Assembly (NCBI GenBank): GCA_016742095.1
Contig: JACVCJ010000015.1
Coordinates: forward strand, 1 to 64,000
Reading direction: 5' to 3'
Source of the DNA: Bacteroidia bacterium
Lineage (GTDB): Bacteria; Bacteroidota; Bacteroidia; CAIKAF01
DNA: 64,000 nt
Below the pieces are notes generated by a model. It saw nothing but the letters and a program-made list of their open reading frames with translations, ran no database searches and was not told the origin of the DNA. Of this stretch, positions 4,384 to 46,780 are shown in pieces; within the stretch, counting starts at the first letter, position 1, and the number at the start of each line of letters is the position of its first letter. A program made the position numbers and the translations under genes.

Positions 4384-5595
4384 TTAGCGCAGCAGGCTTA
4401 ACTCGTTCGCCTTCAGGGCCCGTACCCGCAGGTACACGGTAAGCAGTCCGATACCCAGTACCAGCACCAGGATCAGCAGCAGGTCGTCCCATTGCAGAAT
4501 AACCGGATAGGCCGGCGCTTCGGGGTTGCTGTTGATCCTGACCATGCTCCATTTCTGCTGCATGAGGCATATACCCAGCCCGGCCAGCAGTCCGCTCATG
4601 GCGCCCAGCACCACGATACCGGCGCCCTGCCAGAAGAATACGGCCCGTATGCGCCGGATGGAAAAACCCAGGGAACGCAGCACCATGGTATCCTTGCGTT
4701 TTTCTACCATCAACATGGTAAGCGCCCCGATGATATTAAAAGAAGCTATGAGGAAGATAAAGGCCAGTATGATGAATATGGCCAGCTTTTCGCTTTCCAT
4801 TACACGCAGGGCCACGGCATGCTGATGCAGGCGGTCCTGTACCTCCAGGCCGGGCGGCAGCAACGCCTGTATGGATTCTATGGCGGCAGATTCTGAAGCT
4901 CCGGCTTTGAGTTCGATGTCCATCGCGGAGATCTTTCCCCGCATTTCCAGCACGTCGTCGCCCATTTCCAGCGGAACGATCACATAGGTAAAGTCGAAGT
5001 CCTTCTGGAGTTCAAAAACGCCCTCCGGAAAAGCAAAAGCCGTGTGGAAAGGTTGCAGCATATCTACCTTTTTACCGCGTTTGGGAAAATATACGGACAG
5101 GTATTCGTAGGAATTCGGATTGACGCCCAGCGAAACGGCCACGCCCGAGCCCATAATGCAGGCGTAGAGCGAATCGTAGAAGATGTCCGTATCGCCGTCC
5201 ACCATATAGGGCCGTATCTTCTGTAACCCGGCCCACTGGGGCTCGATGGCCTTTAGTTTGCCTATGTATTGCTTTTCGCCGTACATAAAAAGGGCGTTCT
5301 CTTCGATGACGCGGCTCACGCTTTCTACCTGGGGCAGGGCGGCTATTTTGTCCAGCACCAGGCTGTCCGTCTCAAAGGATTTGCCTTCGGCGGGCACCAC
5401 TTTCAGCGTGGGGTCCAGCGTGTTAAAGATGTCCAGCACCATCCCTTCGAGACCGTTAAAGGCGCTGAGTACGATCACCAGGGCGGCCGTTACCACAAAT
5501 ACCGCAATTCCCGAGATAAAGGATATGATATTGATGATGTTACGGCTTTTTTTTGAAAAAAGGTACCGGAGTGCTATGAAGAATGTGGCTCTCAT
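4384..5595 (-). CDS. FtsX/LolC-type ABC transporter permease
   Basis: 403 residues from the ATG at 5595; the frame could extend to 5622, but MRATFFIALRYLFSKK is the normal family start. One transmembrane helix follows (residues ~17-45), then a long periplasmic domain of the MacB-PCD type (~45-260), then three helices (~270-390), which is the LolC/LolE/FtsX topology. Family members work with a LolD-like ATPase to move lipoproteins or lipids from the inner membrane. No ATPase gene is nearby, so its partner must be elsewhere. It diverges from the MMPL gene. Confidence 0.85.
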   Translation of the reverse strand: MRATFFIALRYLFSKKSRNIINIISFISGIAVFVVTAALVIVLSAFNGLEGMVLDIFNTLDPTLKVVPAEGKSFETDSLVLDKIAALPQVESVSRVIEENALFMYGEKQYIGKLKAIEPQWAGLQKIRPYMVDGDTDIFYDSLYACIMGSGVAVSLGVNPNSYEYLSVYFPKRGKKVDMLQPFHTAFAFPEGVFELQKDFDFTYVIVPLEMGDDVLEMRGKISAMDIELKAGASESAAIESIQALLPPGLEVQDRLHQHAVALRVMESEKLAIFIILAFIFLIASFNIIGALTMLMVEKRKDTMVLRSLGFSIRRIRAVFFWQGAGIVVLGAMSGLLAGLGICLMQQKWSMVRINSNPEAPAYPVILQWDDLLLILVLVLGIGLLTVYLRVRALKANELSLLR

Positions 5596-5734
5596 CTTTT
5601 GTAGACAAACGCAAAGTTGCAATATTATTTCTTATGTCCTACCTTCGCCCCTTCGAATTAAAATTTCTCAATTCAGGATCAACAAACAGTGATGCACCGT
5701 AGCCTGCATATTGTCCCATCAAAAACACAGCAAC

Positions 5735-8074
5735 ATGTTTAAATATATTGCCACGTTTGCCATACGTTTTCGTATTCCTATCCTTATTGTGCTCATACTT
5801 TCCACCGCTTATTTTGCTTACCGCGGTACGGAACTTACCATGAGCTACAAACTGGCGCAGCTGCTGCCTAAATCCGACTCTTCGTATATAGCTTACGAAA
5901 ACTTTAAGAAGAACTACGGACAGGACGGCAGTATCGTGATCATTGCCGTAAAAGATAAAGACTTCTGGAAAGCGGAAAAACTAAAGGCATTCATCAAACT
6001 GAGCGACGACCTGAAGGCCATTAAAGGCGTGGAGCGCGTAGCCAGTCTTAAAAATGCCATTGTGCTTACCCGGAACGACAGTCTTACCCGTTTTGAGACC
6101 GTTCCCCTGATACGCGAAGGCCTGACGATCGATCAGCGACGGGCAGACAGCATACGCATCGAGCTGTTCAACCAGCCCCTGTACGATAAACTGCTCTACA
6201 ACAGCAACGAAAATACCTACCTGCTGCTGGCCACCCTGAAAAAGGACGTGCTCAACAGCAAGGAACGCCTGAACGTGGTGGATAAAATGGAGAAGACCGT
6301 GCTGGCCTTTGAAAGCGACCAGAAAGTAGAGGCCCACATCAGCGGACTACCTTATATACGTACCGTGAACGTAAAAATGGGCCAGAAGGAAATTTCACTC
6401 TTCATCGGCCTGGCCGTCCTGGTTACCGCCATTGTACTGCTTCTTCTCTACCGCAGTTTCTGGGAGGTGATCGTGCCCCTCATCATGGTGGGTATCTCCG
6501 TTTTCTGGGCCCAGGGCATTACTGTAGTGATGGGTTACCAGGTAACCATTCTTACCGGCCTGGTGCCGCCCCTGCTCATTGTGATCGGGATACCCAACTC
6601 CATATACATTATTACCAAGTACCACCGCGAGTACGGATTGCAGGGCGACAAACTCAAGGCCCTGATCCATGTGATCGACAAGGCCGGTTCCGCCATCTTT
6701 ATGGCCAACCTGACCACGGCCATCGGTTTCGGTACCTTTATGGCCACCAACAGTGAGATCCTGAAAGAATTCGGCTTTGTAGCCTCCATCAATATACTGC
6801 TGCTGTTCGTGATGAGTATCCTCTTTATCCCGATCGTCTTCAGCTTCCTGCCCGCGCCTTCGGTACGTGTACGTGCCCACCTCGATAAAAAACTGACCAC
6901 CGCTGTAGTACGTATATTTATCCTGGTAAGTCAGAACTACCGCAAATGGGTATTTATAGGCGCTACGGCCGTTGTACTTTTTTCTGTGTACGGCATTTCC
7001 AAGATCAAGACCAAGGGCAGCATCGTGGACGATATGCCCGAGAACAACCGGGCCATGACCGACCTGCGCTTCTTTGAAAAGACCTTCGGAGGCGTGATGC
7101 CGCTGGAGATCCTGGTGGACACCAAGCGCGAAAAAGGCGCCGTGCGCGACCAGAAGACCTGGAAACGCATCGACGAACTGCAGGAATACATCCGCAACCA
7201 GACCATTTATTCCCGTCCGCTCAGTATCGTGGAGCTGCTTAAAGTGGCCAACCAGGCCTTTTACGAAGGCGATCCGGGCAGCTATTCCGTGCCCAGCAAA
7301 CTGGATGCGCCTTTCATCATCGACTATGTAAAGACCGAGAACGGTCAGGACCCCCTGCTGAACAGTCTCACCGACAGTACCAAGGCCGTGGCCCGCATCA
7401 GCGTACAGATGAAAAACCTGAACACGAACGAAATTGCCCAGGCCCGCGACGATATACAGGCCAAGGCCAACGAGATCTTCGATCCGGAAAATTATAACAT
7501 AACGATAACAGGCGCCTCCATTTCGTTCATGAACGGAACCAAATACCTGGTGAACAACCTGTTCCAGAGTCTGGCCCTGGCGGTGTTCCTCATTGCCTTC
7601 TTTATGGGCCTTATGTTCCGTAACCTGCGCATTGTGATCATATCGCTTATCCCGAATATGATCCCGGCCCTGCTTACGGCCGGACTGATGGGTTATTTCG
7701 GCATACCGCTGAAACCCTCCACCGTACTGGTATTCAGCATTGCCTTCGGTATTTCGGTAGACGATACCATTCACTTCCTGTCGCGTTTCCGCCAGGAAAT
7801 GAAGGCCCACAGCGGCAATATCCGTTCGGCGGTGATCAAGGCCCTGCGCGAAACAGCCGTGGGTATGGCCTACACCTCCATTGTACTGTTCTTCGGCTTC
7901 TCGGTGTTCGCAGCGTCCAACTTCGGCGGTACCAAGGCCCTGGGCATACTGGTTTCGCTTACCCTGCTGTCGGCCATGTTCACCAACCTGCTGCTGCTGC
8001 CGTCCCTGCTGATGGTGATGCACAAAGGCCAGAACCGCCGCCGCGTCCGTAAAATGCAAAAACTGCAGCAATAA
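5735..8074 (+). CDS. MMPL/RND-superfamily transporter
   Basis: 779 residues from ATG 5735; a TTG at 5711 would add eight residues. The layout is the two-fold RND repeat: a single helix at ~10-28, a periplasmic domain, five or six helices at ~218-390, a second single helix at ~405-425, a second periplasmic domain and a last helix block at ~620-770. [14 protein letters not shown] in the second block resembles the proton-relay region of HAE3/MMPL exporters. Such proteins usually export lipids or hydrophobic compounds; the substrate is unknown. Its stop overlaps the rfbA start by one base (TAATG), so the genes are translationally coupled. Confidence 0.88.
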
Positions 8075-8940
8075 TGAAAGGTATCATTTTAGCCGGTGGT
8101 TCGGGCACCCGCCTGTACCCTATTACCTATGCCATCAGCAAGCAGATCATGCCGGTGTACGATAAGCCCATGATCTATTACCCGCTGTCGACACTGATGA
8201 TGGCCGGCATAAAAGAGATACTGATCATCAGCACCCCCAAAGACCTTCCCCTGTTCCGTGAACTATTCGGCAACGGCAGCCACCTGGGACTACAGATCGA
8301 ATACTGTGTACAGGAAGTACCCAATGGTCTGGCACAGGCTTTTGTACTGGGCGAATCCTTCATCGGCACGGATCCCGTTTCCCTGATCCTGGGCGACAAT
8401 ATTTTTTATGCCAGCGGACTCAGCCGTAAACTACAGCAATGTACCGCGCCAAACGGTGGCATCATTTTTGCATATCATGTGTCAGATCCGGAACGATACG
8501 GAGTAGTGGAATTTGATGCGGATAAAAAGGCCGTTTCCATCGAGGAAAAGCCTCAGCACCCCAAAAGCAACTATGCCGTACCCGGCCTGTATTTTTACGA
8601 TAACTCCGTGGTAGACATTGCAAAAAATCTGCGCCCCAGCGCCCGTGGCGAATACGAGATAACCGACGTGAACAAGGCTTATCTCGCTTCCGGCAAACTG
8701 CATGTAAATGTGTTTGACCGGGGTACCGCCTGGCTCGATACCGGCACCGTTGCATCCCTGATGCAGGCAGGCCAGTTCGTACAGGTAATAGAAGAACGCC
8801 AGGGCCTGAAAATAGGCTGTATAGAGGAAATTGCCTGGAGAATGCATTTCATCAGCGACGCCCAGCTCGAAGAACTGGCCGCCCCCATGCTGAAAAGCGG
8901 CTACGGACAATACTTACTAAATCAACTTAAAAGCAGATGA
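8074..8940 (+). CDS. rfbA: Glucose-1-phosphate thymidylyltransferase
   Basis: 288 residues, the usual RmlA length. It makes dTDP-glucose from glucose-1-phosphate and dTTP, the first step of dTDP-rhamnose and related sugar routes. The start [17 protein letters not shown] is the nucleotide-binding loop, and LGDNIFY holds the metal-binding Asp. ERYGVVEFD and [11 protein letters not shown] are typical RmlA segments. The other rhamnose genes (rfbB, C, D) are not adjacent. It is the middle gene of a coupled trio: it overlaps the MMPL stop by 1 base and the epimerase start by 4 (ATGA). Confidence 0.95.
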
Positions 8941-9872
8941 GTACACGCAACATCCTGGTAACGGGCGGAGCCGGTTTTATCGGCAGTTCCATGGCCGAAA
9001 AACTTTCTAAAGACCCGCTCAATAACATCGTTATTACCGATAACCTGCTTACCGGGTCGCTGCGTAAAGTACCCAAATCGGACAATGTGACCTTTCTCAA
9101 GGCCAATGTGAACCGCTTTGACGAGATCTCGGACATCTTCTATACCAAAGGATTCGATTACGTGTTCCATTATGCCGCCATGGTGGGCGTACAGCGCACG
9201 CTGAGCAACCCGGTTTCGGTGCTCGACGATATCCACGGCCTCGAAAATATACTGCGTCTTTCCAAGAACACCGGCGTAAAACACGTATACTATGCCAGTA
9301 GCAGCGAAGTGTACGGCGAACCGGTGGAATTTCCGCAGAACGAACAGACCACCCCGCTCAACAGCCGCCTGCCCTACGCCATTGTAAAGAACGTGGGCGA
9401 GGCCTACCTGCGCTCTTACCAGCAGGAATACGGACTTAACTATACCATTTTCCGCTTTTTCAATACTTACGGGCCCAAACAGAGCCGCGATTTTGTGATC
9501 AGCAAGTTCATCGGACTGGCCCTCAAGAACGAGGATATTACCATTTACGGCGACGGTTCGCAGACCCGCACCTTCTGTTTCGTGGAAGATAACGTAGAGG
9601 CCTGCTACAACGCGTTCCACAAGCATATGTACATCAACGACGTGGTGAATATCGGCAGCAACCGCGAAACGTCTATCCTGGAGCTGGCACAGATCATCAT
9701 ACGCCTGGTGGGTTCCAGTTCACGCATTGTGCACCTGGCCCCGCTCAAAGAGGGCGATATGACGCGTCGCCTGCCCGATAATGCCAAAATGCTGCAGCTG
9801 CTCGGCCGTGCGCCGCGCGAGCTGGAAAAAGGGCTCCAGGAGATCCTGGACAACCCCGGCTTTATCCTGTAA
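8937..9872 (+). CDS. NAD-dependent nucleotide-sugar epimerase/dehydratase
   Basis: 311 residues of the extended short-chain dehydrogenase family. The N-terminal Rossmann loop is TGGAGFIG. The catalytic set is visible as SSSEVYG and the YAIVK Tyr-Lys pair. [15 protein letters not shown] is the segment shared with UDP-glucuronate decarboxylases and UDP-glucose 4-epimerases. The exact reaction cannot be fixed by eye. Coupling to rfbA suggests it acts on a dTDP- or UDP-sugar for surface polysaccharide or glycolipid synthesis, and the MMPL transporter upstream may export a product; both are inference. Confidence 0.85.
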
Positions 9873-34120: not shown

Positions 34121-35503
34121 TTAACGGCGCACGATCTTCTGCACGGAAAGTTCCTGCCCGCCCCGGTACAGGTGCATAATGTACACCCCCGGCGCCAGCT
34201 GTTGCAGATCGATCCCGGAGGAGGCCTGCAGTACTTTTACGTCGGCACATACCCGGCCCTGCATATCCTTCACCTGTAAACGGTCCGGCGCACTGTTCGC
34301 GGGATCTTCCAGGTAGATGCGGCCCGTGAACGGATTCGGGTACAGGCGCAGCGGCGCTTTGCCCGACGTTTCTTCCAGGCTGTTCACAAAGGGGGGCTTC
34401 AGGACGATAATACTGTGTGTATTAGGCTCCGTATTGGACGAAAGCGGCCCGTTGGTAGCGAGGTAGATCTCTTTCTGCGGACCCACGCATACATCGCGCA
34501 GGCGGCCGAACTGGTTCACGAAATACTGGTCCTCGGACAGGATCTGGTCCCCGGCGGGGTTCAGATGCAGTACGGCCAGTTTTTTATCCTTCAGCACGGC
34601 CAGCAACAGGCTGTTGTCAAACTCGGGGAACTCCGGGTTGCTGTAATAATCCATGCCCGAAGGTGCAATGGTAGGCGTCCAGGCGCGGATGGGCTCCACT
34701 ACGTTGTGGTCGTTACAGAAAGTGGTTTCCGAAGGCTGATCGCAATAGCCCTGTACATCGGGCCAGCCGTAATTGCGGCCGGCTTCCAGTATCTGTATCT
34801 CATCGTCGGAAGAGGCGCCGTGTTCTGATGCATATACGCGGCCGTTCGCCACTACCAGGCCCTGCATATTGCGGTGTCCCAATGTATATACGTAACTTCC
34901 GGGAAAAGGATTATCGCCCGGGGCCGTTCCGCCGGCGGCCAGGCGCAGCACCTTGCCGTTGAGTGAGGACATGTTCTGCGGCAGCGATGTATTCTGTGCA
35001 TCGCCCGTGCTCATAAGCAGGGTCTTGTCCGGCAGGAAGGCCAGGCGTGAACCGTCGTGCGTGCTGTTGCCCGCAATACTGTCGATCAGTACCTGTGGAC
35101 TGCCCAATGTGCTGCCGTTGTAACTGTAGCGCACCAGGCGTTCGAATATATTCCCCGAAGAGCCGAAGGTATATACTAAAAAAACGTCGGGAACGGTCGG
35201 GAAGTCGGGATGCAGCGCCATACCCAGCAGACCGGATTCCGACTGCTGGTAAACCTGTCCCGTGATGTCGAGCACAGGGGTCTTGGTTTTGGCAACCGGG
35301 TCTATACGGCTTACCAGGCCCTTTCGTTCGATTATCCAGAGGTGATCATCAGGCGCGTAGGTGATTTCCCAGGGAATGTCCAGCCCGGTGTACACGATGT
35401 CTATTTCCACCGTGGTGTTACCGATAAGGACCGTTGACTGCGCAATGGCCTGCGAAAGGCCCAGAGCCGTCAAAAATACCGGCAGTACAAATCCTTTTTT
35501 CAT
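34121..35503 (-). CDS. Secreted PQQ-type sugar dehydrogenase with T9SS sorting tail
   Basis: 460 residues from ATG 35503, which gives a signal peptide (FLTALGLSQAIAQ); the frame is open to 35527. The six-bladed GSDH-like propeller has GLDIPWEITYAPDDHLWIIERKG, ESGLLGMALHPDF, NSTHDGSRLAFLPDKTLLMSTGD, LGHRNMQGL and RNYGWPDVQGYC. The C-terminal ~75 residues (LRLYPNPFTGRIYLED ... GVYIMHLYRGGQELSVQKIVRR) are a type A T9SS sorting signal. So it should be exported to the cell surface or medium, where it may oxidise sugars if PQQ is bound. Confidence 0.9.
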   Translation of the reverse strand: MKKGFVLPVFLTALGLSQAIAQSTVLIGNTTVEIDIVYTGLDIPWEITYAPDDHLWIIERKGLVSRIDPVAKTKTPVLDITGQVYQQSESGLLGMALHPDFPTVPDVFLVYTFGSSGNIFERLVRYSYNGSTLGSPQVLIDSIAGNSTHDGSRLAFLPDKTLLMSTGDAQNTSLPQNMSSLNGKVLRLAAGGTAPGDNPFPGSYVYTLGHRNMQGLVVANGRVYASEHGASSDDEIQILEAGRNYGWPDVQGYCDQPSETTFCNDHNVVEPIRAWTPTIAPSGMDYYSNPEFPEFDNSLLLAVLKDKKLAVLHLNPAGDQILSEDQYFVNQFGRLRDVCVGPQKEIYLATNGPLSSNTEPNTHSIIVLKPPFVNSLEETSGKAPLRLYPNPFTGRIYLEDPANSAPDRLQVKDMQGRVCADVKVLQASSGIDLQQLAPGVYIMHLYRGGQELSVQKIVRR

Positions 35504-35558: not shown

Positions 35559-36653
35559 TTATTTTGCCGCCGTGTTCAGCGGGGTTCCGTCGCGCAGTTC
35601 CTCGCCCGCCTTTACTACGTAAATGCCGCCCGCTTCCAGGTTGCCGAATACTTCTACCTTGTTGTTCTGTTCGCGACCTTTGCGTACTTCCACGCGCTGT
35701 GCCTTATTATCCACGGAACGTACCAGGAAAATACCTTCGGCTGAGGTCACCACGGCGGTTTTGGGCACGATATACGCGCTGTCGTTCTGCCCGATGGGCA
35801 GTTTTACTTCGGCCACCATGCCGGGCAGCAGTTTTTTATCGTTGTTGTAAACGTCCATTTCTATTTTTTCGGAACGCAGTCGTACGTCCAGGACGCCTGC
35901 CATACGCGATACTTTGGCCGTAAATTCCTCACCGGGCAGGGAACGCACGCCGAATTTCACGGCATCGCCCGGCTTCAGGAAACCTGCATAGGCTTCGGGG
36001 ACCGAAACGGTGAGACGCAGTTTTTTCTGCTCCTGCAGGGTGAACAGCGGCTGTTCCGAACCCCGGCCGGCCGGCCCTACAAAAGCGCCGGGGTTCACGT
36101 TACGCGCCGTAATGATCCCGCTGAAGGGCGCCCGGATCTCCAGGTAGTTCTTCATGGTGGTCACCTCTTTGTAAATGGCTTTGGCCGCGTCCAGTTGTGC
36201 CAGGTCTGAATTTTTACGCGCTTCGGCCTGGTCCAGTTCGTTTTTCGATACAGTTCCCGGCGTTTTCGACGTTTCCAGCAGGCGATCGTAGGTGGCTTTA
36301 GAGGCGGCATATACCGCTTCCTGGGAACGCAGGCGCGATTCGGCGGCCACCAGCTGTGAGCTGATCTCCGGCGCTTCCAGTACCACCAGCAGCTGACCTT
36401 CCTTTACTTCGGTACCCAGGTCGGCTTTGAGTTCTTTTACGAAACTGCTCACCTTGGCATACAGGTCTACCTGCTGAAAGGCGATGAGTTCCCCCGGCAG
36501 CTGCAGTCCGGATGAAAGTGTATCTTTTTTCAATACGAACGTTTCTGTAACGGCAGGCCCGGCGGCAGCCGTTTTATCTTCCTGTTTTTCCGAAGCGGCA
36601 CAACCGGCCAGCAGCAGCCCGATCGCGGTGTATACTATGTGTATCCTGTTCAT
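35559..36653 (-). CDS. RND efflux periplasmic adaptor (lipoprotein)
   Basis: 364 residues. Type II signal peptide with lipobox LLAGC (Cys19), so it is anchored in a membrane facing the periplasm. It has the HlyD/AcrA order: beta-barrel start, lipoyl half-motif (YAKVSSFVKELKADLGTEVKEGQLLVVLEAPE), helical hairpin (~115-170), second lipoyl half (IRAPFSGIITARNVNPGAFVGPAG) and a membrane-proximal domain. It bridges the RND pump and the TolC-like channel. Last gene of the efflux operon. Confidence 0.93.
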   Translation of the reverse strand: MNRIHIVYTAIGLLLAGCAASEKQEDKTAAAGPAVTETFVLKKDTLSSGLQLPGELIAFQQVDLYAKVSSFVKELKADLGTEVKEGQLLVVLEAPEISSQLVAAESRLRSQEAVYAASKATYDRLLETSKTPGTVSKNELDQAEARKNSDLAQLDAAKAIYKEVTTMKNYLEIRAPFSGIITARNVNPGAFVGPAGRGSEQPLFTLQEQKKLRLTVSVPEAYAGFLKPGDAVKFGVRSLPGEEFTAKVSRMAGVLDVRLRSEKIEMDVYNNDKKLLPGMVAEVKLPIGQNDSAYIVPKTAVVTSAEGIFLVRSVDNKAQRVEVRKGREQNNKVEVFGNLEAGGIYVVKAGEELRDGTPLNTAAK

Positions 36654-36679: not shown

Positions 36680-39600
36680 TTATACGTTATGTTCGCTGCC
36701 TTCTTCGTAAAAGCGGCTGTTCTTATCGGTAGGGTCGAGCGAAAGCGACGTAGTGGCGGCTTTACCCTGTACCCAGGCAAATACCAGGGGCAGGATCACC
36801 AGTACGGCAAAGGTGGAAGCGATCAGTCCGCCGATCACAGCACGGCCCAGCGGCGACACCTGGTCACCGCCCTCTCCGTGCCCGATGGCCATCGGCAGCA
36901 TACCCATTACCATGGCCACACTGGTCATAAGGATCGGACGCAGGCGCAGGGAAGTGGCCTCTTTAGCCGCCTGCAATGCGTCGCCCGTGCGCTTGCGGAT
37001 CTCTTCGGCATTGTTGATGAGAAGTACGGCATTGGCAATGGAAACCCCCACCGACATAATGATACCCATGTACGACTGCAGATTGAGCGTAGAGCCCGTG
37101 AGCATAAGCAGCAGCAGGGAACCCAGCACCACTGCCGGCACCGCGGTAAGCACCACCAGCGAAACCTTGAACGACTGGAAATTAGCCGAAAGCATGAGGA
37201 AGATCACCACCACGGCCACCAGCAGTCCGGCCTGCAGACTATCGAGCGTTTCGCCCAGTACCTTGCCCAGACCGATCTGTTCCACGAAAAGTCCGCGCGG
37301 CAGTTCACCCAGGGAGGCAATGGCCTTTTGTACATCCGCAGAGGCGGAACCCAGGTCTTTGTCGTGCAGATTGGCCGTTACCGACAGGTAGGGCATGGCG
37401 CCCAGGTTGTCATTCTGGCCATAGGTAGTGTCCTGCGTAATGGTAGCCACATCGCCCAGTATGGGACGTATCTGGTTACGTAACAAAGGAATTTCCCCGA
37501 TGTTGTTCTCACTGCGCATCTCATTCAGCGGCACCTGCACCTGTACGTTGTAGGAAAGGCCTACGCGTTCGTCCACCCACACGTTCTTTTCGGTGTACCT
37601 TGAGGAAGAGGTGGAAGCGATCAGCGAGCGTGAAACGTCGCTCATGTCCACACCCAGCTGGGCGGCCCGCGTACGGTCAATGTCGATGTTCAGCGCCGGG
37701 TAACGGATGGGCTGGGCGATCTGCACATCGCGCAGGTATTCAATGCCCCGCAGTTTCTCCACGATCTTCAGCGCATATTCTTCATTCTGTTTTTTATTCT
37801 TACCCGCAATACGCACCTCCACCGGTGTGGGCGAGCCCTGGCTCAATACCTTATCCGTAAGTTCTATGGGTTCAAAGGAAAGTTTTACGTCCGGCAGCAC
37901 CTTGTAAATGCGCTCCCGCAGCTGGTCCTTGAACGCGTCCATATCAGCCTCGTAATCCTTCAGGCTCACCTGGAACACGGCCTCGTGCGGACCGGCGGTG
38001 AACAGGTAAATGGGCGATACGGAGAACAATGAAGGGTGCTGGCCCACGTACACCGAAGTTATATTGATATGTTCCTTACCCACCATGTCTTCCAGTTCTT
38101 TCAGCACCAGCAGCGTCTTTTCCTCGGTGCGTTCGATACGGGTGCCGTCTGCCGCGCGCATACGCAGCTGAAACTGGCTGGAATCCACTTTGGGCAGTAC
38201 GTCGCGGCCGATGTTCGAAAGGAACAGCACAGCCAGCGCCGAAACGCCCAATATATATACTAAAACGACCGGCTTGCGGAATGGAACAAGGCGTTGATGC
38301 ATATCCAAAAATCGGTTGCGGAATGTATCGAAACGGGATACTTTTGCCGCTTTCGCTTTGTGTTTTTCTTCTGTATGCGCGTGTGCCTTCATCAGCCAGT
38401 TGGCCATAATGGGTACAAAGGTCTGCGAAAGCAGGAAGGAAACGATCATGGCAAAGCCGATGGCCAGGGCCAGGGGCAGGAACAACGCACCCGGAATGCC
38501 CGACATGGTAAAGGCCGGGGCAAATACCGCCAGGATACAGAACAGGATCAGCAGTTTGGGGAAGGCGATCTCCCGACAGGCGTCCCAGATGGCCAGGGCC
38601 TTGGATTTACCCATGGCCAGGTGCTGGTGAATGTTCTCGATGGTCACCGTAGACTCGTCCACCAAAATACCAATGGCCAGGGCCAGACCGCTGAGCGACA
38701 TGATATTGATGGTTTGTCCGGCCAGTTTCAGGAACAGTACCCCCGCGATCACCGAAGTGGGAATGGTAAGGATCACGATGAGGGCCGCACGGCGATCGCC
38801 CAGGAACAGCAGTACCATCAGGCCGGTGAGCAGGGCCCCGATCACACCTTCGCTGATGAGACTTTTTACGGCGTTGATCACGTACACCGACTGGTCGAAC
38901 TCGTAGGAAAGCGTAACGTCCTCGGGCAGGGTACTCTGAATTTTAGGCAGGTTCTCCTTCAGCTGGTTCACCACTTCCCAGGTAGAGGCATCGGCAGCCT
39001 TGGCAATACTGATGTATACCGAGCGCTTGCCGTTCACCAGGGCATAACCGGCGGTAATGTCGGCGCCGTCCTTCACCGTGGCCACATCGCGCAGGTACAG
39101 GTTCTGCACGCCGCCTTTGAAGAGCGGTATACTGCCGAAATCCCCGATGTTCTTAATCGTATTATTGGTGGGTGTTATGTAATTGAAATCACCGATGCGT
39201 ACGTTCCCCGATGGCGCCGTCTGGTTATTGAGGCGGATGGCTTCCACGATCTGATCGGGCGTAAGATTGTGCGCACGCAGAGCTTCGGGGTTCACATTGA
39301 TCTCGATGGTACGCGGACTACCCCCGAACGGTGGCGGCGCCAGCAGACCCGGAATGGCCGTGAATGAGGCCCGCACGTATACGTTGGCCAGGTCCTGCAG
39401 TTCATTGTTGGAACGCGTGGGACTGCTCAGTACCAGCTGCCCTACGGGAAGCGAAGAGGCATCGAAACGGATCACGAAGGGCGGTTGCGAACCCGGCGGA
39501 AAGATCGCCTGTATACGGTTGGAAAGCGCACTGAGCTCCGATGCGGCCTGGGCCATATTGGTGCCTTCGTAATAGGTAAGCTTCATGAGCATGAGCCCCT

Positions 39601-39856
39601 GTATGTTCTTGGTCTCGATTGTTTTGATACCGTTGGCGAACAGCAGGATGTTCACGTACTGCTTGCCGAAATACGCCTCCATCTGGTTGGGCGTGTAGCC
39701 TCCGAAAGGGTGTGCTATGTAAATTACCGGCAGGTTCATCTTCGGCAGAATGTCCACCTTAATATCCCGCACGGCCTGTATCCCGAAGAAAAACAATCCC
39801 GCTACCAGTACCAGTACCGTAATGGGTTTGCGTAATGCGGCCCTTATCAAGTTCAT
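36680..39856 (-). CDS. RND efflux pump, AcrB/HAE1 superfamily
   Basis: 1058 residues, full length. Twelve transmembrane helices in two sets, with two large periplasmic domains. GILVDESTVTIENIHQHL is the TM4 proton-relay region, with an Asp-Glu pair. GFAMIVSFLLSQTFVPIM and the C-terminal MSVGVSIANAVLLINNAEE / GMLPMAIGHGEGGDQVSPLGRAV are typical of the family. The substrate is unknown; sequence reading cannot separate drug from metal export, but the methionine pairs of CusA were not seen. Middle gene of the tolC-pump-adaptor operon. Confidence 0.94.
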   Translation of the reverse strand: MNLIRAALRKPITVLVLVAGLFFFGIQAVRDIKVDILPKMNLPVIYIAHPFGGYTPNQMEAYFGKQYVNILLFANGIKTIETKNIQGLMLMKLTYYEGTNMAQAASELSALSNRIQAIFPPGSQPPFVIRFDASSLPVGQLVLSSPTRSNNELQDLANVYVRASFTAIPGLLAPPPFGGSPRTIEINVNPEALRAHNLTPDQIVEAIRLNNQTAPSGNVRIGDFNYITPTNNTIKNIGDFGSIPLFKGGVQNLYLRDVATVKDGADITAGYALVNGKRSVYISIAKAADASTWEVVNQLKENLPKIQSTLPEDVTLSYEFDQSVYVINAVKSLISEGVIGALLTGLMVLLFLGDRRAALIVILTIPTSVIAGVLFLKLAGQTINIMSLSGLALAIGILVDESTVTIENIHQHLAMGKSKALAIWDACREIAFPKLLILFCILAVFAPAFTMSGIPGALFLPLALAIGFAMIVSFLLSQTFVPIMANWLMKAHAHTEEKHKAKAAKVSRFDTFRNRFLDMHQRLVPFRKPVVLVYILGVSALAVLFLSNIGRDVLPKVDSSQFQLRMRAADGTRIERTEEKTLLVLKELEDMVGKEHINITSVYVGQHPSLFSVSPIYLFTAGPHEAVFQVSLKDYEADMDAFKDQLRERIYKVLPDVKLSFEPIELTDKVLSQGSPTPVEVRIAGKNKKQNEEYALKIVEKLRGIEYLRDVQIAQPIRYPALNIDIDRTRAAQLGVDMSDVSRSLIASTSSSRYTEKNVWVDERVGLSYNVQVQVPLNEMRSENNIGEIPLLRNQIRPILGDVATITQDTTYGQNDNLGAMPYLSVTANLHDKDLGSASADVQKAIASLGELPRGLFVEQIGLGKVLGETLDSLQAGLLVAVVVIFLMLSANFQSFKVSLVVLTAVPAVVLGSLLLLMLTGSTLNLQSYMGIIMSVGVSIANAVLLINNAEEIRKRTGDALQAAKEATSLRLRPILMTSVAMVMGMLPMAIGHGEGGDQVSPLGRAVIGGLIASTFAVLVILPLVFAWVQGKAATTSLSLDPTDKNSRFYEEGSEHNV

Positions 39857-39868
39857 CCCTCTGAGTGA

Positions 39869-41260
39869 TTAAAATTCATTAATAAATATACTAAAATCGC
39901 CTGCGGCCGCCGCTTTCATAAGCAGGGCCTGCCATACATTACTATACGCAATATCGCGGTGGGTTTCGGCGCGGTTCAGTGCGTACATGCTCTGGGTCAC
40001 TTCTACAATGGTAGAAAGTCCGTTGCGGTACATGGTACTTTTTTGTACATAGGCCTCCGAAGCGGCTTTTACCTGCTGCGGCACCTCGGCGTAGGCGTCC
40101 ATGGCGTTGCGTACCTTCTGTTCGGCCAGGGCCTGCTGGGCCAGTATCTGCTGCCGGGCCAGGTCGTATTCCTGCTGCAGGCCGTCGCTGATGTATTTCT
40201 GCGAACGTACCCGGGCCTCGTTCTGCAGTACCGACATAATATTCCAGTTCATGCCGATGCCCACCAGATAATTGGCCCGTGTGGGCGTAACCCCGGTGCC
40301 GTAGTTGCGGGTGAACTTGGTCTGGTCCTGCGTGTAACCGGCCTCAAAACCCGATCCGCGGCCCTGCATAATACCAAAGAGCGAAAAGGACGGGTAATAC
40401 TGCCGGCGCAGCAGTTTGGTCTGCTCCAGGCTGATATTGGTGCGGCTCTGCAGAAAGCGCAGCACCGGGTGGGTTTCCTCGCGCAAGGAAGCGGAAGAAA
40501 AAACGGAAGCAGGAACTGTGCTGAGAAATGTGGTATCCAGCACAAAATCCGTCGTTTGAATCCCCATTAAAACAGACAGTGTATTAGCCTGTTCCTGCTC
40601 CGTATCTTTTGCCCGTATAAGTGCTATTCTTGCGGCAGAGACCTCCGCGGCGGCCAGGGAGGAATCTACTCCCGGGATAAGGCCGTTGGCGGCGCGGCTT
40701 ACCGTGGTCGATTTAAAGACCAGGGCCCGTTCCAGGTTGCGTTCCTGTGAGCGGGTGATGCGTTGTGCAGCCAGCAGGTTCAGGTAGGCCGAAGCCACTT
40801 TTACCTGGTGCTGGAACTGCTCCTGGGCCAGGTCGGCCGAGTCGCGCTGCAGCGTGGTCTTTGCTACTTTAATACGCTCGCGCACGCGTCCGAACGTGAA
40901 AAATTCCCAGTTGAAATTGGCCAGGTACAGGGCGCCGAAAGCGGCATTCCAGTTCTGGTCGGGAAGCGGCAGCCCCGAAGAGGCCACCCCGAAACCGCCA
41001 AAGCCGTACAGGGGTCCGTTTTGTCCGTTCACCGTTCCGTAGTCCTGCTGGGCAGACACCACCAGGTTGGGCGCGTACGAACGCCTTGCCTGTCCCAGCT
41101 GTGCCGCCGATGCCTGTACATAACTGCTTTTTGCTTTTATACTGCCGTAATTGTTCAGCGCGATATTCAGTGCGTCCTTCATGTTCAGCACCTGCGCCTG
41201 CAGCCCCGCACAAAAGAAAAATGCCAGGCCGCTTAAACCATACATGTTTTTTCGTATCAT
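39869..41260 (-). CDS. TolC-family outer-membrane efflux channel
   Basis: 463 residues with signal peptide (SGLAFFFCAGLQAQ). Two OEP repeats of long helices, e.g. VLNMKDALNIALNNYGSIKAKSSYVQASAAQLGQ in the first and YAEVPQQVKAASEAYVQKSTMYRNGLSTIVEVTQSMYALNRAE in the second. Trimers form the outer-membrane exit duct. First gene of the efflux operon; 12 bases separate it from the pump gene. Its promoter carries the shared CTTCA direct repeat. Confidence 0.92.
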   Translation of the reverse strand: MIRKNMYGLSGLAFFFCAGLQAQVLNMKDALNIALNNYGSIKAKSSYVQASAAQLGQARRSYAPNLVVSAQQDYGTVNGQNGPLYGFGGFGVASSGLPLPDQNWNAAFGALYLANFNWEFFTFGRVRERIKVAKTTLQRDSADLAQEQFQHQVKVASAYLNLLAAQRITRSQERNLERALVFKSTTVSRAANGLIPGVDSSLAAAEVSAARIALIRAKDTEQEQANTLSVLMGIQTTDFVLDTTFLSTVPASVFSSASLREETHPVLRFLQSRTNISLEQTKLLRRQYYPSFSLFGIMQGRGSGFEAGYTQDQTKFTRNYGTGVTPTRANYLVGIGMNWNIMSVLQNEARVRSQKYISDGLQQEYDLARQQILAQQALAEQKVRNAMDAYAEVPQQVKAASEAYVQKSTMYRNGLSTIVEVTQSMYALNRAETHRDIAYSNVWQALLMKAAAAGDFSIFINEF

Positions 41261-41298: not shown

Positions 41299-41333
41299 CA
41301 AAGAGAATACAGGAATCTGAAGTAATTTTGAAG
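41299..41333 (-). promoter_or_regulatory. Efflux-operon promoter with response-regulator-type direct repeat
   Basis: On the minus strand: CTTCA (41333-41329), six bases, CTTCA (41322-41318), eleven bases, then the -7-like TCTCTTTG (41306-41299). The repeat period is 11 bp. The same layout precedes the alcohol-dehydrogenase and response-regulator genes. The tolC ATG is 39 bases downstream of the -7 box. Confidence 0.7.
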
Positions 41334-41377
41334 CCTGCGCTACCCTGTGCCTTTTTTGGAGTTCCTTAACAAAAGGA

Positions 41378-41411
41378 TAAAAAAAGTCCGCATACTTCTG
41401 GCATGCGGACT
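41378..41411 (-). terminator. Intrinsic terminator after the aldo/keto reductase gene
   Basis: AGTCCGCAT (41385-41393) and ATGCGGACT (41403-41411) arms around a 9-base loop, followed by a run of seven T on the minus strand. It separates the dehydrogenase unit from the efflux operon. Confidence 0.8.
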
Positions 41412-41502
41412 GCGAGACTTGAGAATTCCCCCTCTTATGAAAAAGTAACGAATTTGAGAAACATGGAATTGCGCTCTCCTCCCGACTCAGGCTATACTAT
41501 GT

Positions 41503-42453
41503 TTACAGGGCAGACGCCTCATTGAGCCGCTGCACCGCCTCTGCAGACAGTGTAAGTTCCGGCGCTTTTACGAGGGACTGCAGCTGGTCCGTACTGGTGG
41601 CGCTTACGATAGGCGCGGTTACCGAAGGCCGCTGTATCAGCCAGGCCAGGGCTACCGTTGCCGGCGTGGAACCGGTTTCGGCCGCCGTTCTGTCCAGGGC
41701 GTCCAGGATGCGCATACCGCGAGCGTCCAGGTATTTTTTTACTCCGCCGCCACGGGCCGACTGTGAAAGGTCGCTTTCCGTGCGGTACTTGCCGCTCAGG
41801 AAACCGCTGGCCAGTGCATAATAGCCGATCACACCCAGATCATTCTCCGTGCACACTTTTTCGAGTGCCGTTTCAAAACCGGCGCGGTCGTACAGGTTAT
41901 ACTGCGGTTGCAGGCTTTCGTAGCGGGGCAGACCGTTCTTTGCTGAAATTTCGAGGGCCGATGCCAGGCGCTCCGCCTTAATGTTCGAAGCCCCGATCCA
42001 GCGTACCTTGCCTTCTTTTATCAGTTCGGCATAGGTTTGCAGCACTTCTTCCCGGGGCACGTTTTCGTCGTCCACGTGCGACTGGTACAGGTCGATATGG
42101 TCTGTCTGCAGGCGGTTCAGTGAATCTTCCACGGCGCGGCGGATGTACGCGGGGGCCAGACCTTTGCGGCCATCCCCGAAGTCCCAGCCTACCTTGGTGG
42201 CAATGATCACTTTATCCCGGTTACCACGGCTCTTCAGCCAGCGGCCTATGATGGTTTCCGACTCCCCGCCCTTGTTGCCGGGCGCCCAGGCCGAATATAC
42301 GTCGGCCGTATCTATAAAATTGAAACCTGCGGCGATAAACCCGTCCAGCAGTTCAAAAGAAGTTTTCTCATCGGCCGTCCAGCCGAATACATTGCCTCCG
42401 AACGTAAGCGGACTTACATACAGGTCGCTTCTTCCCAGTTGTCTTTTTTCCAT
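41503..42453 (-). CDS. Aldo/keto reductase
   Basis: 316 residues, single (beta/alpha)8 barrel. The catalytic tetrad is visible: Asp in NFIDTADVYS with the following Tyr, Lys in KVIIATKVGWDFGDG, His in DHIDLYQSHVDD. The cofactor segment is APIVSATSTDQLQSL. It reduces aldehydes or ketones with NADPH, in the YghZ/Tas-like group. It is 14 bases after the alcohol dehydrogenase gene and shares its regulated promoter, suggesting joint carbonyl detoxification. Confidence 0.93.
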   Translation of the reverse strand: MEKRQLGRSDLYVSPLTFGGNVFGWTADEKTSFELLDGFIAAGFNFIDTADVYSAWAPGNKGGESETIIGRWLKSRGNRDKVIIATKVGWDFGDGRKGLAPAYIRRAVEDSLNRLQTDHIDLYQSHVDDENVPREEVLQTYAELIKEGKVRWIGASNIKAERLASALEISAKNGLPRYESLQPQYNLYDRAGFETALEKVCTENDLGVIGYYALASGFLSGKYRTESDLSQSARGGGVKKYLDARGMRILDALDRTAAETGSTPATVALAWLIQRPSVTAPIVSATSTDQLQSLVKAPELTLSAEAVQRLNEASAL

Positions 42454-42467
42454 TTCTGCTAAAAATC

Positions 42468-43517
42468 TTATTGTTTAAGGGAGGCCAGGTCGATCACAAA
42501 ACGGTATTTCACATCGCTTTTTTCCATGCGGCTGTAGGCTTCATTGATATACGACATATCGATCACTTCCACTTCGGAAACGATGTTGTGTCCGGCACAG
42601 AAGTCGAGCATTTCCTGGGTCTCGGCAATACCGCCGATGAGCGAACCGATAATGCTGCGGCGTTTGCCGATGAGGTTAAAGGCCGGTACCTGCGAGGCTT
42701 CGGGCGGTACGCCCACCACGATCATGGTGCCGTTGGTACGCAGCAGGTTCAGGTAGATATTGTAATCGTGCGGGGCCGAAACGGTATTCAGGATAAAATC
42801 GAATGTGCCGGCGGCCTGTTTCATGGCTTCCTGGTCCGAAGTGAGAATAAAGTGATGCGCGCCCAGTTTTTCGGCATCGGCCGCTTTGGAAGGCGAGCTG
42901 CTGAGCATGGTCACCTCGGCACCAAAGGCCACCGCAAATTTCACGGCCATGTGTCCCAGTCCGCCCAGGCCCAACACGGCCACTTTATGCCCTTTGCCCG
43001 CTTTTACGTAACGCAGGGGCGAATAGGTGGTGATACCCGCACAGAGCAGGGGCGCTACGGCATGCAGGGGCAGTTTGTCTGAAATGTGCAGGGTATACTG
43101 CTCGTCTACCACGATCTGTGTGGAATAACCACCGTACGTGGGTGTTTTACCATCGCGTTCATGATCGTTGTAGGTACTGGTCATTCCTTCGTCGCAGTAT
43201 TGTTCCAGTCCGGCCTTACAGTTATCGCAGGTACGGCAGGAGTCCACGAAGCAGCCAACACCGGCCAGGTCGCCCACGGTAAAGTTTTTTACATGATCGC
43301 CCACGGCCGTGATCTTACCTACAATTTCGTGACCCGGCACCAGCGGGTAAATGGCCGGGCCCCATTCGCTGCGGGCCTGGTGAATATCTGAATGGCATAC
43401 GCCACAATATAGGATCTCGATCTGTACATCGTGCGGACCAACCGCTCTTCTTTCCAGCTGAAACGGGGCCAGTGGCGTTCCGGCATCCTGTGCAGCATAA
43501 GCATTTGCAAGACTCAT
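42468..43517 (-). CDS. Zinc-dependent alcohol dehydrogenase, YahK-like
   Basis: 349 residues. Catalytic zinc: Cys in YCGVCHSDIH and His in PGHEIVGKI. Structural zinc: C-x5-C...C-x2-C-x7-C in VGCFVDSCRTCDNCKAGLEQYC. Rossmann loop GLGGLGHMAVKFA. This is the NADPH-dependent aldehyde-reductase group that includes YahK and cinnamyl-alcohol dehydrogenases. First gene of the two-gene reductase unit, preceded by the shared CTTCA repeat. Confidence 0.93.
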   Translation of the reverse strand: MSLANAYAAQDAGTPLAPFQLERRAVGPHDVQIEILYCGVCHSDIHQARSEWGPAIYPLVPGHEIVGKITAVGDHVKNFTVGDLAGVGCFVDSCRTCDNCKAGLEQYCDEGMTSTYNDHERDGKTPTYGGYSTQIVVDEQYTLHISDKLPLHAVAPLLCAGITTYSPLRYVKAGKGHKVAVLGLGGLGHMAVKFAVAFGAEVTMLSSSPSKAADAEKLGAHHFILTSDQEAMKQAAGTFDFILNTVSAPHDYNIYLNLLRTNGTMIVVGVPPEASQVPAFNLIGKRRSIIGSLIGGIAETQEMLDFCAGHNIVSEVEVIDMSYINEAYSRMEKSDVKYRFVIDLASLKQ

Positions 43518-43579
43518 ACGTTAAAATTTGATCGTTAATACAAAAAGAAAGGGGTATTCCCCGGAAGTGTTTTACCGTT

Positions 43580-43614
43580 CAAAGAGAATACATAAATCTG
43601 AAGAAAGTTTGAAG
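43580..43614 (-). promoter_or_regulatory. Dehydrogenase-unit promoter with the shared direct repeat
   Basis: On the minus strand: CTTCA (43614-43610), six bases, CTTCA (43603-43599), eleven bases, TCTCTTTG (43587-43580). From the second CTTCA to the end of the -7 box only three bases differ from the efflux promoter. The ATG is 63 bases further. Confidence 0.7.
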
Positions 43615-43619
43615 TGCGC

Positions 43620-44876
43620 CTACGGAAAACGTATATCCATGATATGCCAGTTCTCTTCGTATACATAACTGATCCTGTACGAATTGAGGTCGCATATCTG
43701 CTTCACGATGGCCAGGCCCACCCCGATGGAAGCACTGCTCTGGTTCCCTTTTTTAAAGCGCTGGAACAGCTGTTCGGTGGGCACTTCGGGTGCTTCGCCC
43801 GTATTTTTTATGATAAGACCCTGACGGTTGAGCGAAAGCACCACTTTTCCACCCGGAATATTGTGACGTATGGCATTACTAAGCAGATTGTTAAGCAGAA
43901 TATCGGCCAGGGCCGGATGCACGGGCAGGTGTACCTTTTCTTCCACATGCGATTCAAATTCCAGTGCATGCATGTCCATCAGCTCGCTGAAGGTGGCCGC
44001 GGCCTCGCGCGTGGCGCGGCAGAACGGGATATTTACCGAGGTCTCGAATTCGTGGTTCTCCAGTTTATTGAGCAGGATGAGCGACTGGTTGATGCGTGAA
44101 AGCTTGTCGATGCCGGCCTGTATATTGCCGATCAGCTGCGCCTGGTCGTCGTTCAGTTCAGTTTCCATCAGCAGGTCCAGCTTGGTGCGCATAATGGCCA
44201 GGGGCGTCTGCAGCTCGTGCGAGGCGTTCTCTGAAAATTCCTTCAGGGCGTTGTAATCTTCCAGCACTTTATCGGTCATTTTGTTCAGGAAATCGTTCAG
44301 CTCATTGAATTCCTTTGTACGTGTTTCCGGCAGCTGCATGGGTTTTTTATCGCGCAGACTGAAGTGATGTATACGGTCCAGCGCTACATGAAAAGGCCGC
44401 AGGATGCGGTTGGACACCAGGCGGGCCGAAATGCCGATGAGTACGGCCAGCAGCAGCAGGATCAGCAGGAAGGAACTGATGAGTCCGCGCAGGATCTGGC
44501 TGGTTTTGGTAACGTAGTTATAGGACGAAATGCGGTAGCTCTGGTCGTTGATGGTATAGTAGGAATTGACCGTAAGCCGGCATTCCTTGTGGTTGATGTT
44601 CGGGTTGTAGAAACTGCTTTCCTTTACCTCGCAGGTGTTGGACACTACGTTGGAGTCGAGTTTGGCGATCTCGATGGGACGGCCGTTGGTCTGCAGTTCG
44701 GTAGCCACACCCAGGCGGATCTGTTCGGCCGTTTTATTGTTCAGGTTCTTCAGCCGTTCGATCTCCCCGTCGTCGATCTCTTTTTTTACCCGGTAATAGG
44801 CAATGGTACCGCCGATCAGCATGACAAAAAGCGTAATACTGATGTACCAGAGAGTAAATTTATTGACGAGTTTCAT
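43620..44876 (-). CDS. Sensor histidine kinase of the efflux/reductase regulon
   Basis: 418 residues. Transmembrane helices at ~8-27 and ~132-154 enclose a ~100-residue periplasmic sensor containing two Cys (NTCEVKE... KECRL), possibly a disulfide or metal/electrophile sensing site. HAMP-like linker, then H-box SENASHELQTPLAIM (His ~220) and an ATPase domain with LLNNLLSNAIRHN and SIGVGLAIVKQI. Its start overlaps the regulator stop by 4 bases (ATGA), so it is the cognate partner. Confidence 0.92.
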   Translation of the reverse strand: MKLVNKFTLWYISITLFVMLIGGTIAYYRVKKEIDDGEIERLKNLNNKTAEQIRLGVATELQTNGRPIEIAKLDSNVVSNTCEVKESSFYNPNINHKECRLTVNSYYTINDQSYRISSYNYVTKTSQILRGLISSFLLILLLLAVLIGISARLVSNRILRPFHVALDRIHHFSLRDKKPMQLPETRTKEFNELNDFLNKMTDKVLEDYNALKEFSENASHELQTPLAIMRTKLDLLMETELNDDQAQLIGNIQAGIDKLSRINQSLILLNKLENHEFETSVNIPFCRATREAAATFSELMDMHALEFESHVEEKVHLPVHPALADILLNNLLSNAIRHNIPGGKVVLSLNRQGLIIKNTGEAPEVPTEQLFQRFKKGNQSSASIGVGLAIVKQICDLNSYRISYVYEENWHIMDIRFP

Positions 44877-45556
44877 TTTTTTGCGGTATTGAATTTATAG
44901 CCGAGCCCGTAAACGGTATCAATGTAATCGGTTCCGCCTGCCGCGGCAATTTTTTTGCGCAGGTTCTTCAGGTGCTGGTACACGAAGTCGAAATTGTCGA
45001 GGCTGTCGGTATAATCGCCCCAGAGGTGTGTAGCGATGGACTGCCGGGAAAGTACGCGGTTCTTGTTCACCATGAAATACAGCAGCAGGTCGAACTCTTT
45101 ACGCGTCAGTTCCAGCGCCGATCCGTTCACCGCTGTTTCCATTTTATCGGTATCGAGGCTGATCTCGTTGAATTCCACCAGGTGGCCGCCGTTCAGTTTT
45201 TTGCGGCGGTAAATGGCACGCAGGCGGGCGTGTAGCTCGGCCAGGTGAAAGGGTTTGGTGATGTAGTCGTCGGCACCGCCTTCCAGGCCTTCGATCTTGT
45301 CGTCGAGTGCATTTTTGGCCGAAGCGATGAGGATACTGCTTTGTATTTTAGCCTCCCGGATAAATTTGAGCAGCTGCAGGCCGTTGCCGTCAGGCAGCAT
45401 AATATCCAGAATGATGCAATCGTAACTGTACAGGGTCAGTTTTTCACGGGCTTCCTCGCAGGTATAACTCAGCTCGCAGATATAGCCTTCATGCGTCAGG
45501 AAACGCTGAATGCTGTTGGCGAGTTCTTCATTATCCTCAATAATAAGCACTTTCAT
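44873..45556 (-). CDS. OmpR-family response regulator of the efflux/reductase regulon
   Basis: 227 residues from ATG 45556 (a TTG three codons upstream is less likely because it lies inside the -7 box). Receiver domain MKVLIIEDNEELANSIQ with phospho-Asp in CIILDIMLPDGNG (~51) and Lys in ITKPFHLAE. Winged helix with TRKEFDLLLYFMVNKNRVLSRQ and DFVYQHLKNLRKKI. OmpR-type regulators bind tandem direct repeats about one helical turn apart, which is what stands in front of this gene, the dehydrogenase unit and the efflux operon. Confidence 0.93.
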   Translation of the reverse strand: MKVLIIEDNEELANSIQRFLTHEGYICELSYTCEEAREKLTLYSYDCIILDIMLPDGNGLQLLKFIREAKIQSSILIASAKNALDDKIEGLEGGADDYITKPFHLAELHARLRAIYRRKKLNGGHLVEFNEISLDTDKMETAVNGSALELTRKEFDLLLYFMVNKNRVLSRQSIATHLWGDYTDSLDNFDFVYQHLKNLRKKIAAAGGTDYIDTVYGLGYKFNTAKK

Positions 45557-45562
45557 GGGATG

Positions 45563-45597
45563 CAAGATTACAGCAAAATTCTGAAGAAAGTTTGAAG
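45563..45597 (-). promoter_or_regulatory. Response-regulator promoter with the shared direct repeat
   Basis: On the minus strand: CTTCA (45597-45593), six bases, CTTCA (45586-45582), eleven bases, TAATCTTG (45570-45563). The 18-base repeat block is identical to the one before the dehydrogenase gene. The ATG at 45556 lies six bases after the -7 box, so the mRNA is leaderless or nearly so. Confidence 0.7.
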
Positions 45598-45623: not shown

Positions 45624-46067
45624 CTATTTGCCTGTCGCCGGAAACTCCCGTACGTAATAATCCAGGCTCATGTTCAGCGGATTCGCAGGATGAGCGCATA
45701 CCACCAGGTAATAACGGTCGCCTACCGGCAGGCCCACCGTGCGGTTTCCGCCGGCCATACCATAGGACGATACGGGGATCTTTACGTCACATACCGTTGT
45801 TTCGCCGCCCCGGCTGATCCAGCTAAAGCCATCCTGTGCAAATTTACGCCAGCGCAGGCTGTATTCCCCGCAGGGACCCAGGCTGTCTGCAGGGTGCGGA
45901 CCCGTGGCATATTCCCGGAACTGCTCTTCGAACGCGTAAAATTCCCGTTCCATGGCTGTTTGCACAGAATCGGCCGAAAGTCCGTGCTCTTCCTTTTCCA
46001 GGACGGTTTGCGTATATGCCGGCACAGACATGACCCAGAACAACAGGAAGAACCCAAGTGCTTTCAT
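45624..46067 (-). CDS. Secreted protein with one GDRYY cysteine repeat
   Basis: 147 residues from ATG 46067 (MKALGFFLLFWVMSVPAYTQ signal peptide); the frame is open to 46190 without a signal. The mature part is a single copy of the domain found twice in the preceding gene: F-x-x-F-E-E-x-F-R-E-Y, G-P-C-x-x-Y-x-L-R-W, a second Cys, then PVGDRYYLVVCAHP and LDYYVRE. Three cysteines could form disulfides in the periplasm. Fourth and last gene of the exporter-fusion operon. Domain not recognised; function unknown. Confidence 0.75.
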   Translation of the reverse strand: MKALGFFLLFWVMSVPAYTQTVLEKEEHGLSADSVQTAMEREFYAFEEQFREYATGPHPADSLGPCGEYSLRWRKFAQDGFSWISRGGETTVCDVKIPVSSYGMAGGNRTVGLPVGDRYYLVVCAHPANPLNMSLDYYVREFPATGK

Positions 46068-46072: not shown

Positions 46073-46780
46073 TCAGGGTTTCTTCTCCGGCGTTTGCCGT
46101 TCGTAATAGTATACATCCTGCCGGATGGTGCTCACCGGTATATCGATGGTGCAGATGTAATAGCGGTCGCCAATGACCAGCGGCCAGCAACCGCCTGTGA
46201 GCGGGTGTTCCGTCTTTTTCCCCTTACAGAGCGCTTCGCCGTCGCCCCGTTCTACATTTTCAAAAAAACTGTGGTTGGAATAATGCCATACCAGTTTGTA
46301 CTCTTCGCAGGGACCGGGCACATCCGGGGCATGGGGCGCACTTTTATAGGCCTCTATCTCTGCCAGGAAGTCTGCATATTCCTTTTGTATATTTATTTCT
46401 GACGAATCGAGCATGTAATACCAGGTAGTACTGTGTACCGAGCCCGTAGGTTCTTCGTAGCTGCACACATAATACCGATCGCCGATGTACCTGGACCTGA
46501 GGCAGAAACCGGCCGGCTGGCCATTTGTCTCCGGACCGCAGAGTGGCTGGCCGTTGCCGGAACTGATCGTTTGCTCCCGGTTGTCTACCCGGTACACCCA
46601 TACCTGGCGGAAGCGTTCACAGTTCATGATCAGCGACCCGGGCGGTTTCGTGGCTGCATAGGCCTCCATCTCCGACAAAAATGCATCAAAGGCTTTGTTC
46701 CCCGTGGAACGCAGAGTGTCGTTCTGGGCCCTTAAGGCCAGCGAAAAACCAAAAAACAACAGGCAGAAAAGTACTCTCAT
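46073..46780 (-). CDS. Secreted protein with two GDRYY cysteine repeats
   Basis: 235 residues with signal peptide (CLLFFGFSLALRAQ). Two copies of one domain, ~30-125 and ~132-228: FLSEMEAYA / FLAEIEAYK, then MNCERFRQVW / GPCEEYKLVW, GNGQPLC / GDGEALC, then YIGDRYYVCSYE / VIGDRYYICTID and a closing YY. Cysteines and GDRYY are conserved in all three copies in the operon. It follows the FAD oxidoreductase gene by 35 bases and precedes its paralogue by 5. Function unknown. Confidence 0.75.
   Translation of the reverse strand: MRVLFCLLFFGFSLALRAQNDTLRSTGNKAFDAFLSEMEAYAATKPPGSLIMNCERFRQVWVYRVDNREQTISSGNGQPLCGPETNGQPAGFCLRSRYIGDRYYVCSYEEPTGSVHSTTWYYMLDSSEINIQKEYADFLAEIEAYKSAPHAPDVPGPCEEYKLVWHYSNHSFFENVERGDGEALCKGKKTEHPLTGGCWPLVIGDRYYICTIDIPVSTIRQDVYYYERQTPEKKP

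Follow-up and report, generated by a model that had tools for sequence, protein, structure and literature searches.

The window (the whole stretch of DNA analysed here, 64 kb) encodes an OmpR-type two-component pair that very probably controls an autoregulated regulon with four operators, whose output would be two RND pumps and two putative carbonyl reductases. In the proposed mechanism, a PorY-family kinase would phosphorylate the response regulator (RR) encoded beside it. The RR would then bind as a dimer to head-to-tail half-sites with a period of 11 bp (family consensus nTTCnrAAT), which in this genome would read CTTCAAAnTT and CTTCAGA and occupy about -39 to -24. Judged from the position of the site, the bound RR would activate a primary-sigma promoter in a class II-like manner, with the -7 box at a fixed spacing. 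It would drive its own RR-HK transcript, adh-akr and tolC-rnd-mfp in the window and, in trans, mfp2-rnd2-tolC2 on contig C70. The expected response is more RND efflux together with the two putative carbonyl reductases. The features are listed in Table 1.

Table 1. Genes, predicted operators and -7-like boxes of the proposed regulon
Feature	Position	Strand	Remarks
Operator 1, CTTCAAACTTTCTTCA	45582-45597	minus	RR promoter, predicted autoregulation site; repeat and 18-mer rarity
-7-like box of RR promoter, TAATCTTG	45563-45570	minus	RR start codon 6 nt downstream
OmpR-family response regulator (RR)	44873-45556	minus	receiver domain and Trans_reg_C winged helix
PorY-family sensor histidine kinase	43620-44876	minus	NF052314, 397.7 bits (cutoff 350)
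Operator 2, CTTCAAACTTTCTTCA	43599-43614	minus	adh promoter; begins 5 nt past kinase stop codon
-7-like box of adh promoter, TCTCTTTG	43580-43587	minus	11 nt past repeat
Zinc alcohol dehydrogenase / aldehyde reductase (adh)	42468-43517	minus	closest solved chain E. coli YahK (1uuf)
Aldo/keto reductase (akr)	41503-42453	minus	14 nt past adh, same operon
Operator 3, CTTCAAAATTACTTCA	41318-41333	minus	tolC promoter
-7-like box of tolC promoter, TCTCTTTG	41299-41306	minus	11 nt past repeat
TolC-type outer-membrane efflux protein	39869-41260	minus	family/domain profile matches
RND permease (ACR_tran)	36680-39856	minus	distant from solved pumps; best ZneA, 250 bits
RND periplasmic adaptor	35559-36653	minus	TIGR01730
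C70 operon (mfp2-rnd2-tolC2)			adaptor 354 aa; RND permease 1022 aa; TolC 437 aa

The two-component pair

The RR stop codon overlaps the kinase start. Both RR domains score over cutoff (PF00072, 93.2 bits; PF00486, 70.9 bits), and no Pfam domain besides these two was found in the RR. The nearest solved relatives of the RR include BasR/PmrA; it fails the PmrA equivalog cutoff (165.2 bits versus 330) and falls far short of the cutoffs of the BaeR, CusR-like and CzcR models. The PorY-family cutoff (NF052314) was also passed by nine of the ten related kinases tested. The sensor domain of the kinase is divergent, and its sensor region holds cysteines at residues 82 and 99, a possible lead for a redox or thiol sensor. 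Conservation of the two cysteines was rejected, as they are not typical of relatives.

Two small proteins (45624-46067 and 46073-46780, minus strand) are encoded upstream of the RR gene and are probably exported. They are homologous to each other (30% over 111 aa), the larger one holds two copies of the shared unit, and no family match was found for either. These upstream genes lie on the same strand as the RR gene and could also supply its transcription.

Three predicted operators with a fixed promoter layout

The repeat CTTCA-N6-CTTCA is present at the tolC, adh and RR promoters as the earlier note had claimed. All three copies in the window are on the minus strand, as is every gene named in that note, whereas dinucleotide shuffles gave a mean of 0.09 copies per window with a maximum of 1. 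The gap between the end of the repeat and the -7-like octamer is exactly 11 nt at all three promoters, also as claimed. Each octamer agrees with TAnnTTTG at five of the six fixed positions, so the label "-7 box" is right but imperfect. In Flavobacterium psychrophilum, the -7 box was mapped at -12 to -5 (PMC9723704). With the box at the same place, the half-sites would occupy about -39 to -35 and -28 to -24, and the -33 region therefore falls between them. This arrangement is consistent with the class II-like placement around the -33 region that had been proposed, and the operator at the RR's own promoter argues for the proposed self-regulation.

The tolC, rnd and mfp genes form one operon downstream of adh-akr. 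By sequence reading, the window RND permease carries VDES in its fourth transmembrane helix; AcrB-type pumps carry VDDA or VDDG there. The gene 55 nt past the adaptor gene (34121-35503, minus strand) encodes a glucose/sorbosone-dehydrogenase-like protein whose C-terminus carries a type IX secretion signal, and this gene may share the efflux-adaptor transcript.

A fourth predicted operator at a second RND operon

Bare CTTCA-N6-CTTCA was rejected as a diagnostic motif, as it has 10 matches genome-wide versus 6 in the reversed control and 5.6 expected, and an extended motif was therefore needed. The 18-mer CTTCAAANTTNCTTCAGA, which was derived from the three window sites, has exactly four exact matches in the 3.7 Mb genome, where 0.0017 are expected. 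The fourth copy (C70:50247-50264) is on another contig, had no part in the earlier note and is independent of the motif derivation. All four sites are at promoters, and the box of the C70 site, TTAGTTTA, is again 11 nt from the repeat. Behind this operator lies a second complete RND operon, mfp2-rnd2-tolC2 (L118, G000:C70:46000-58000, positions 3735-9787), whose permease is AcrB/MexB-like and reaches 529 bits with its best solved chain. The fourth site thus strengthens the earlier suggestion that efflux genes are probable targets. A MarR-family gene precedes the C70 operator and operon and may add a second layer of control to it.

The genome-wide scan suggested in the earlier note was carried out with the repeat plus TTTG at a fixed distance, allowing at most one mismatch. 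It returned 7 sites, namely the four CTTCAAANTTNCTTCAGA sites, the site past the kinase gene of a paralogous pair (contig C64) and two probable chance matches. When one extra spacing base was allowed, a site of a third paralogous pair was gained (C65:78230, before a PepSY-like gene), together with two further probable chance matches. The hits are thus mostly the sites of the pair itself and of its paralogues. The earlier note had named commonness of the pattern at unrelated promoters as evidence against the regulon, and these two scans indicate that it is not common there; this holds for the repeat with its box, which is rare, whereas the bare 5+5 pattern discriminates poorly. At C47:16523, ahead of a TPR-like gene, CTTCAGATTTTCTTCA may be a fifth site, though a weak candidate. 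The open-access literature that was searched contains no description of the operator motif.

The layout recurs beside related pairs

RR homologues with 39-61% identity were collected, nearly all of them from the same class and with an adjacent kinase gene. Of 84 loci, 31 had TTC-N8-TTC within 150 nt before the RR gene, whose promoter showed no clear repeat with this simple pattern in the remaining 53; past the kinase gene, the pattern was found at 29 of 77. After removal of near-duplicates, and with TTTG placed at +19 or +20 from the second TTC, the repeat with TTTG was present before the RR gene in 12 of 64 non-redundant regions (0.11 in dinucleotide shuffles, 0 antisense) and after the kinase gene in 13 of 58 (0.14 and 0, respectively). 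When periods of 7-17 were compared, period 11 was found in 25 regions and every other period in 0-1. Period 11 alone thus stands out in the relatives, in support of the claim that the window repeats have the period of OmpR-type operators. The sites of the relatives that were aligned had been selected for these features; their consensus is aTTCaaAaTTtcTTCaaAATc, a short spacer and then tAnmTTTG. The spot after the kinase gene occupied by operator 2 is where many relatives keep theirs. These results indicate that the combination of tag and promoter is not private to this genome but recurs beside related pairs across the class.

The nearest relative (61% RR identity) has no adh or tolC sites. Conservation of the whole regulon in it was rejected, as its second CTTCAA match (G242:C30) has no correctly spaced -7 box. 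Matches in G002 and G197 were rejected as operators for the same reason, and all three are therefore taken as chance.

In 15 of the 29 relatives with a site at the RR promoter, the distance from the last G of the -7 box to the RR start codon is 4 or 5 nt. Across all 84 loci, TTTG is most frequent at gaps of 4 and 5, with 13 loci, and seldom occurs at others. If the box occupies -12 to -5, such a gap would place the transcription start on the start codon, and the RR mRNA of many relatives is therefore predicted to be leaderless. This would be unusual, because leaderless mRNAs are only 5.5% of the total in F. psychrophilum (PMC9723704). For the RR of the window, the gap is 6 nt and the predicted start is at about 45558, giving a leader of about 2 nt. 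The predicted leaders of the targets are about 58 nt for adh, about 34 for tolC and about 51 for the C70 operon.

Paralogous pairs have their own half-sites

The genome has three paralogous pairs, each with its own half-site: CTTCA for the window pair, ATTCAG for the pair on C64, and ATTCCC/TTTCCC for the pair on C65 near 75 kb. The second pair (G000:C64:20697-21362, L144) is followed by genes for a PepSY-like protein and an OMP_b-brl_3 barrel. The third, a PorY-type pair (G000:C65:75294-75959 and following, L145), is on the contig of the window, about 30 kb away, and its operators are found at the RR, after the kinase gene and before the PepSY-like gene. Across relatives, half-site letters also show a strong association with two residues of the recognition helix. 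Where the helix carries Gln instead of His, the fifth letter of the proximal half-site is C in 5 of 5 cases, versus 1 of 28 for the others. One residue earlier, Ala goes with A at the start of the distal half-site in 13 of 16 cases, and Thr or Gln in 0 of 10. Recognition-helix residues may hypothetically set these letters; the counts contain only one or two phylogenetically independent contrasts, so shared ancestry could also explain them.

Taken together, the comparisons suggest a class-wide grammar of PorY-kinase/OmpR-RR pairs, for which the chances appear evenly balanced. In this grammar, an 11-bp repeat would replace the -33 element at a fixed spacing in two places, one ahead of the RR gene and one past the kinase gene. 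The RR mRNA would be leaderless and the target mRNAs leadered, half-sites would drift with the two recognition-helix residues, and paralogues would be insulated from each other.

Genes at the target position

Of the 19 genes tested that directly follow the kinase gene in relatives, 9 are PepSY-like (PF11396), 3 are OMP_b-brl_3 barrels, 4 are Omp85-type and 1 is TolC-type; the other 2 had no family match. Thirteen of 85 related pairs have an RND system no more than 8 kb away, which in 11 cases points in the same direction. In the neighbourhood search of the 85 loci, neither reductase was clearly found as a homologue in an operon with the pair, and two weaker reductase-type matches, an AKR on the opposite strand and a distant ADH, are kilobases away. 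No type IX secretion gene was among the targets tested. These counts indicate that efflux is recurrent, that envelope genes are commonest and that the reductases are local to this genome, where the regulon seems to have gained them.

Alternative explanations

The earlier note had proposed a system that senses a reactive or toxic compound and answers with reduction and export; in its fullest form, this compound would be a reactive carbonyl or a similar electrophile. A YahK-like dehydrogenase and an aldo/keto reductase that share their operator with two RND pumps are in line with this, as are the two atypical sensor cysteines. However, the relatives show no linkage of reductases to the pair, the conserved target position holds mostly envelope genes, and the two reductases are known by enzyme family only. 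Because envelope genes are commonest there and the reductases are local, the idea is weakened; with a kinase of the PorY family it finds no support in these data and is considered improbable. The signal is more likely to be envelope damage, or a toxic compound that can be exported, than a specific carbonyl. A change in the sign of regulation is somewhat less probable still. A site over -39 to -24 could block polymerase, so that the RR would repress instead of activating, and both the site position taken alone and boxes near consensus are compatible with repression. PmrA- and PhoB-type class II activation works by sigma contact. The distance between repeat and box is constant throughout the class, as expected for such a contact, whereas a repressor would tolerate other spacings.

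The operators could also be real but belong to another OmpR-type regulator, such as a paralogous pair. OmpR-type sites resemble one another, and the two paralogous RRs on C64 and C65 might also bind the CTTCA sites. In contrast, the paralogues' own promoters bear different half-sites, and CTTCA sites are found at the promoter of the window pair itself and directly past its kinase gene, which makes control by another regulator quite unlikely. The least probable explanation, with very little chance of being correct, needs no common regulator: a promoter module would have been copied recently, or the sites would resemble one another by chance. Over about 36 bp, the adh promoter is indeed similar to that of tolC, and the tolC and C70 sites share an identical 18-mer. 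However, the flanks of the sites are unrelated, all four sites stand at promoters, almost no 18-mer match is expected by chance in the genome, and the architecture is kept in distant relatives although their letters differ; a copied module could, moreover, still be functional. Control of all four operators by the RR encoded in the window is preferred.

Comparison with known systems

Such pairs appear beside pumps and envelope genes in this phylum, and few two-component operators of the phylum were found in the literature searched. A fixed promoter layout would allow regulons to be predicted from sequence for the large PorY-type kinase family, whose namesake is known from type IX secretion. In two systems of the same phylum, HaeSR of Porphyromonas gingivalis (PMC3764172) and PhoPR of Riemerella anatipestifer (PMC9603813), binding extends from the system's own promoter to numerous envelope genes. 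The Riemerella PhoP motif was reported as TTTAACA (PMC9603813), unlike the TTC repeat found here, and no HaeR motif was found in the text searched (PMC3764172).

PorXY of P. gingivalis, which regulates type IX secretion (PMC4800418), is related through its kinase, as the kinase of the window also belongs to the NCBIfam PorY family. However, the kinase here is partnered with an OmpR-type RR encoded next to it and not with a PglZ-domain PorX, and PorY and PorX of P. gingivalis are encoded apart (PGN_2001 and PGN_1019). The window pair therefore does not look like PorXY. BaeSR, CusSR and CzcRS are OmpR-type pairs controlling an RND pump, as the window pair appears to do. In contrast to these, one operator here joins two unlinked RND operons and a reductase operon, so that a single sensor would link two unlinked pumps.

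PmrA/BasR, QseB and PhoB resemble the window system in operator layout, being OmpR-type regulators with tandem half-sites of 11-bp period over the upstream promoter element. The PmrA box consists of CTTAA-type repeats, whereas the half-site here is centred on TTC and not on TTAA. The promoters of the window have a Bacteroidota -7 box in place of a -10 element. On these features, the regulon would work like a PmrA- or PhoB-type class II system, yet it is not that of PmrA.
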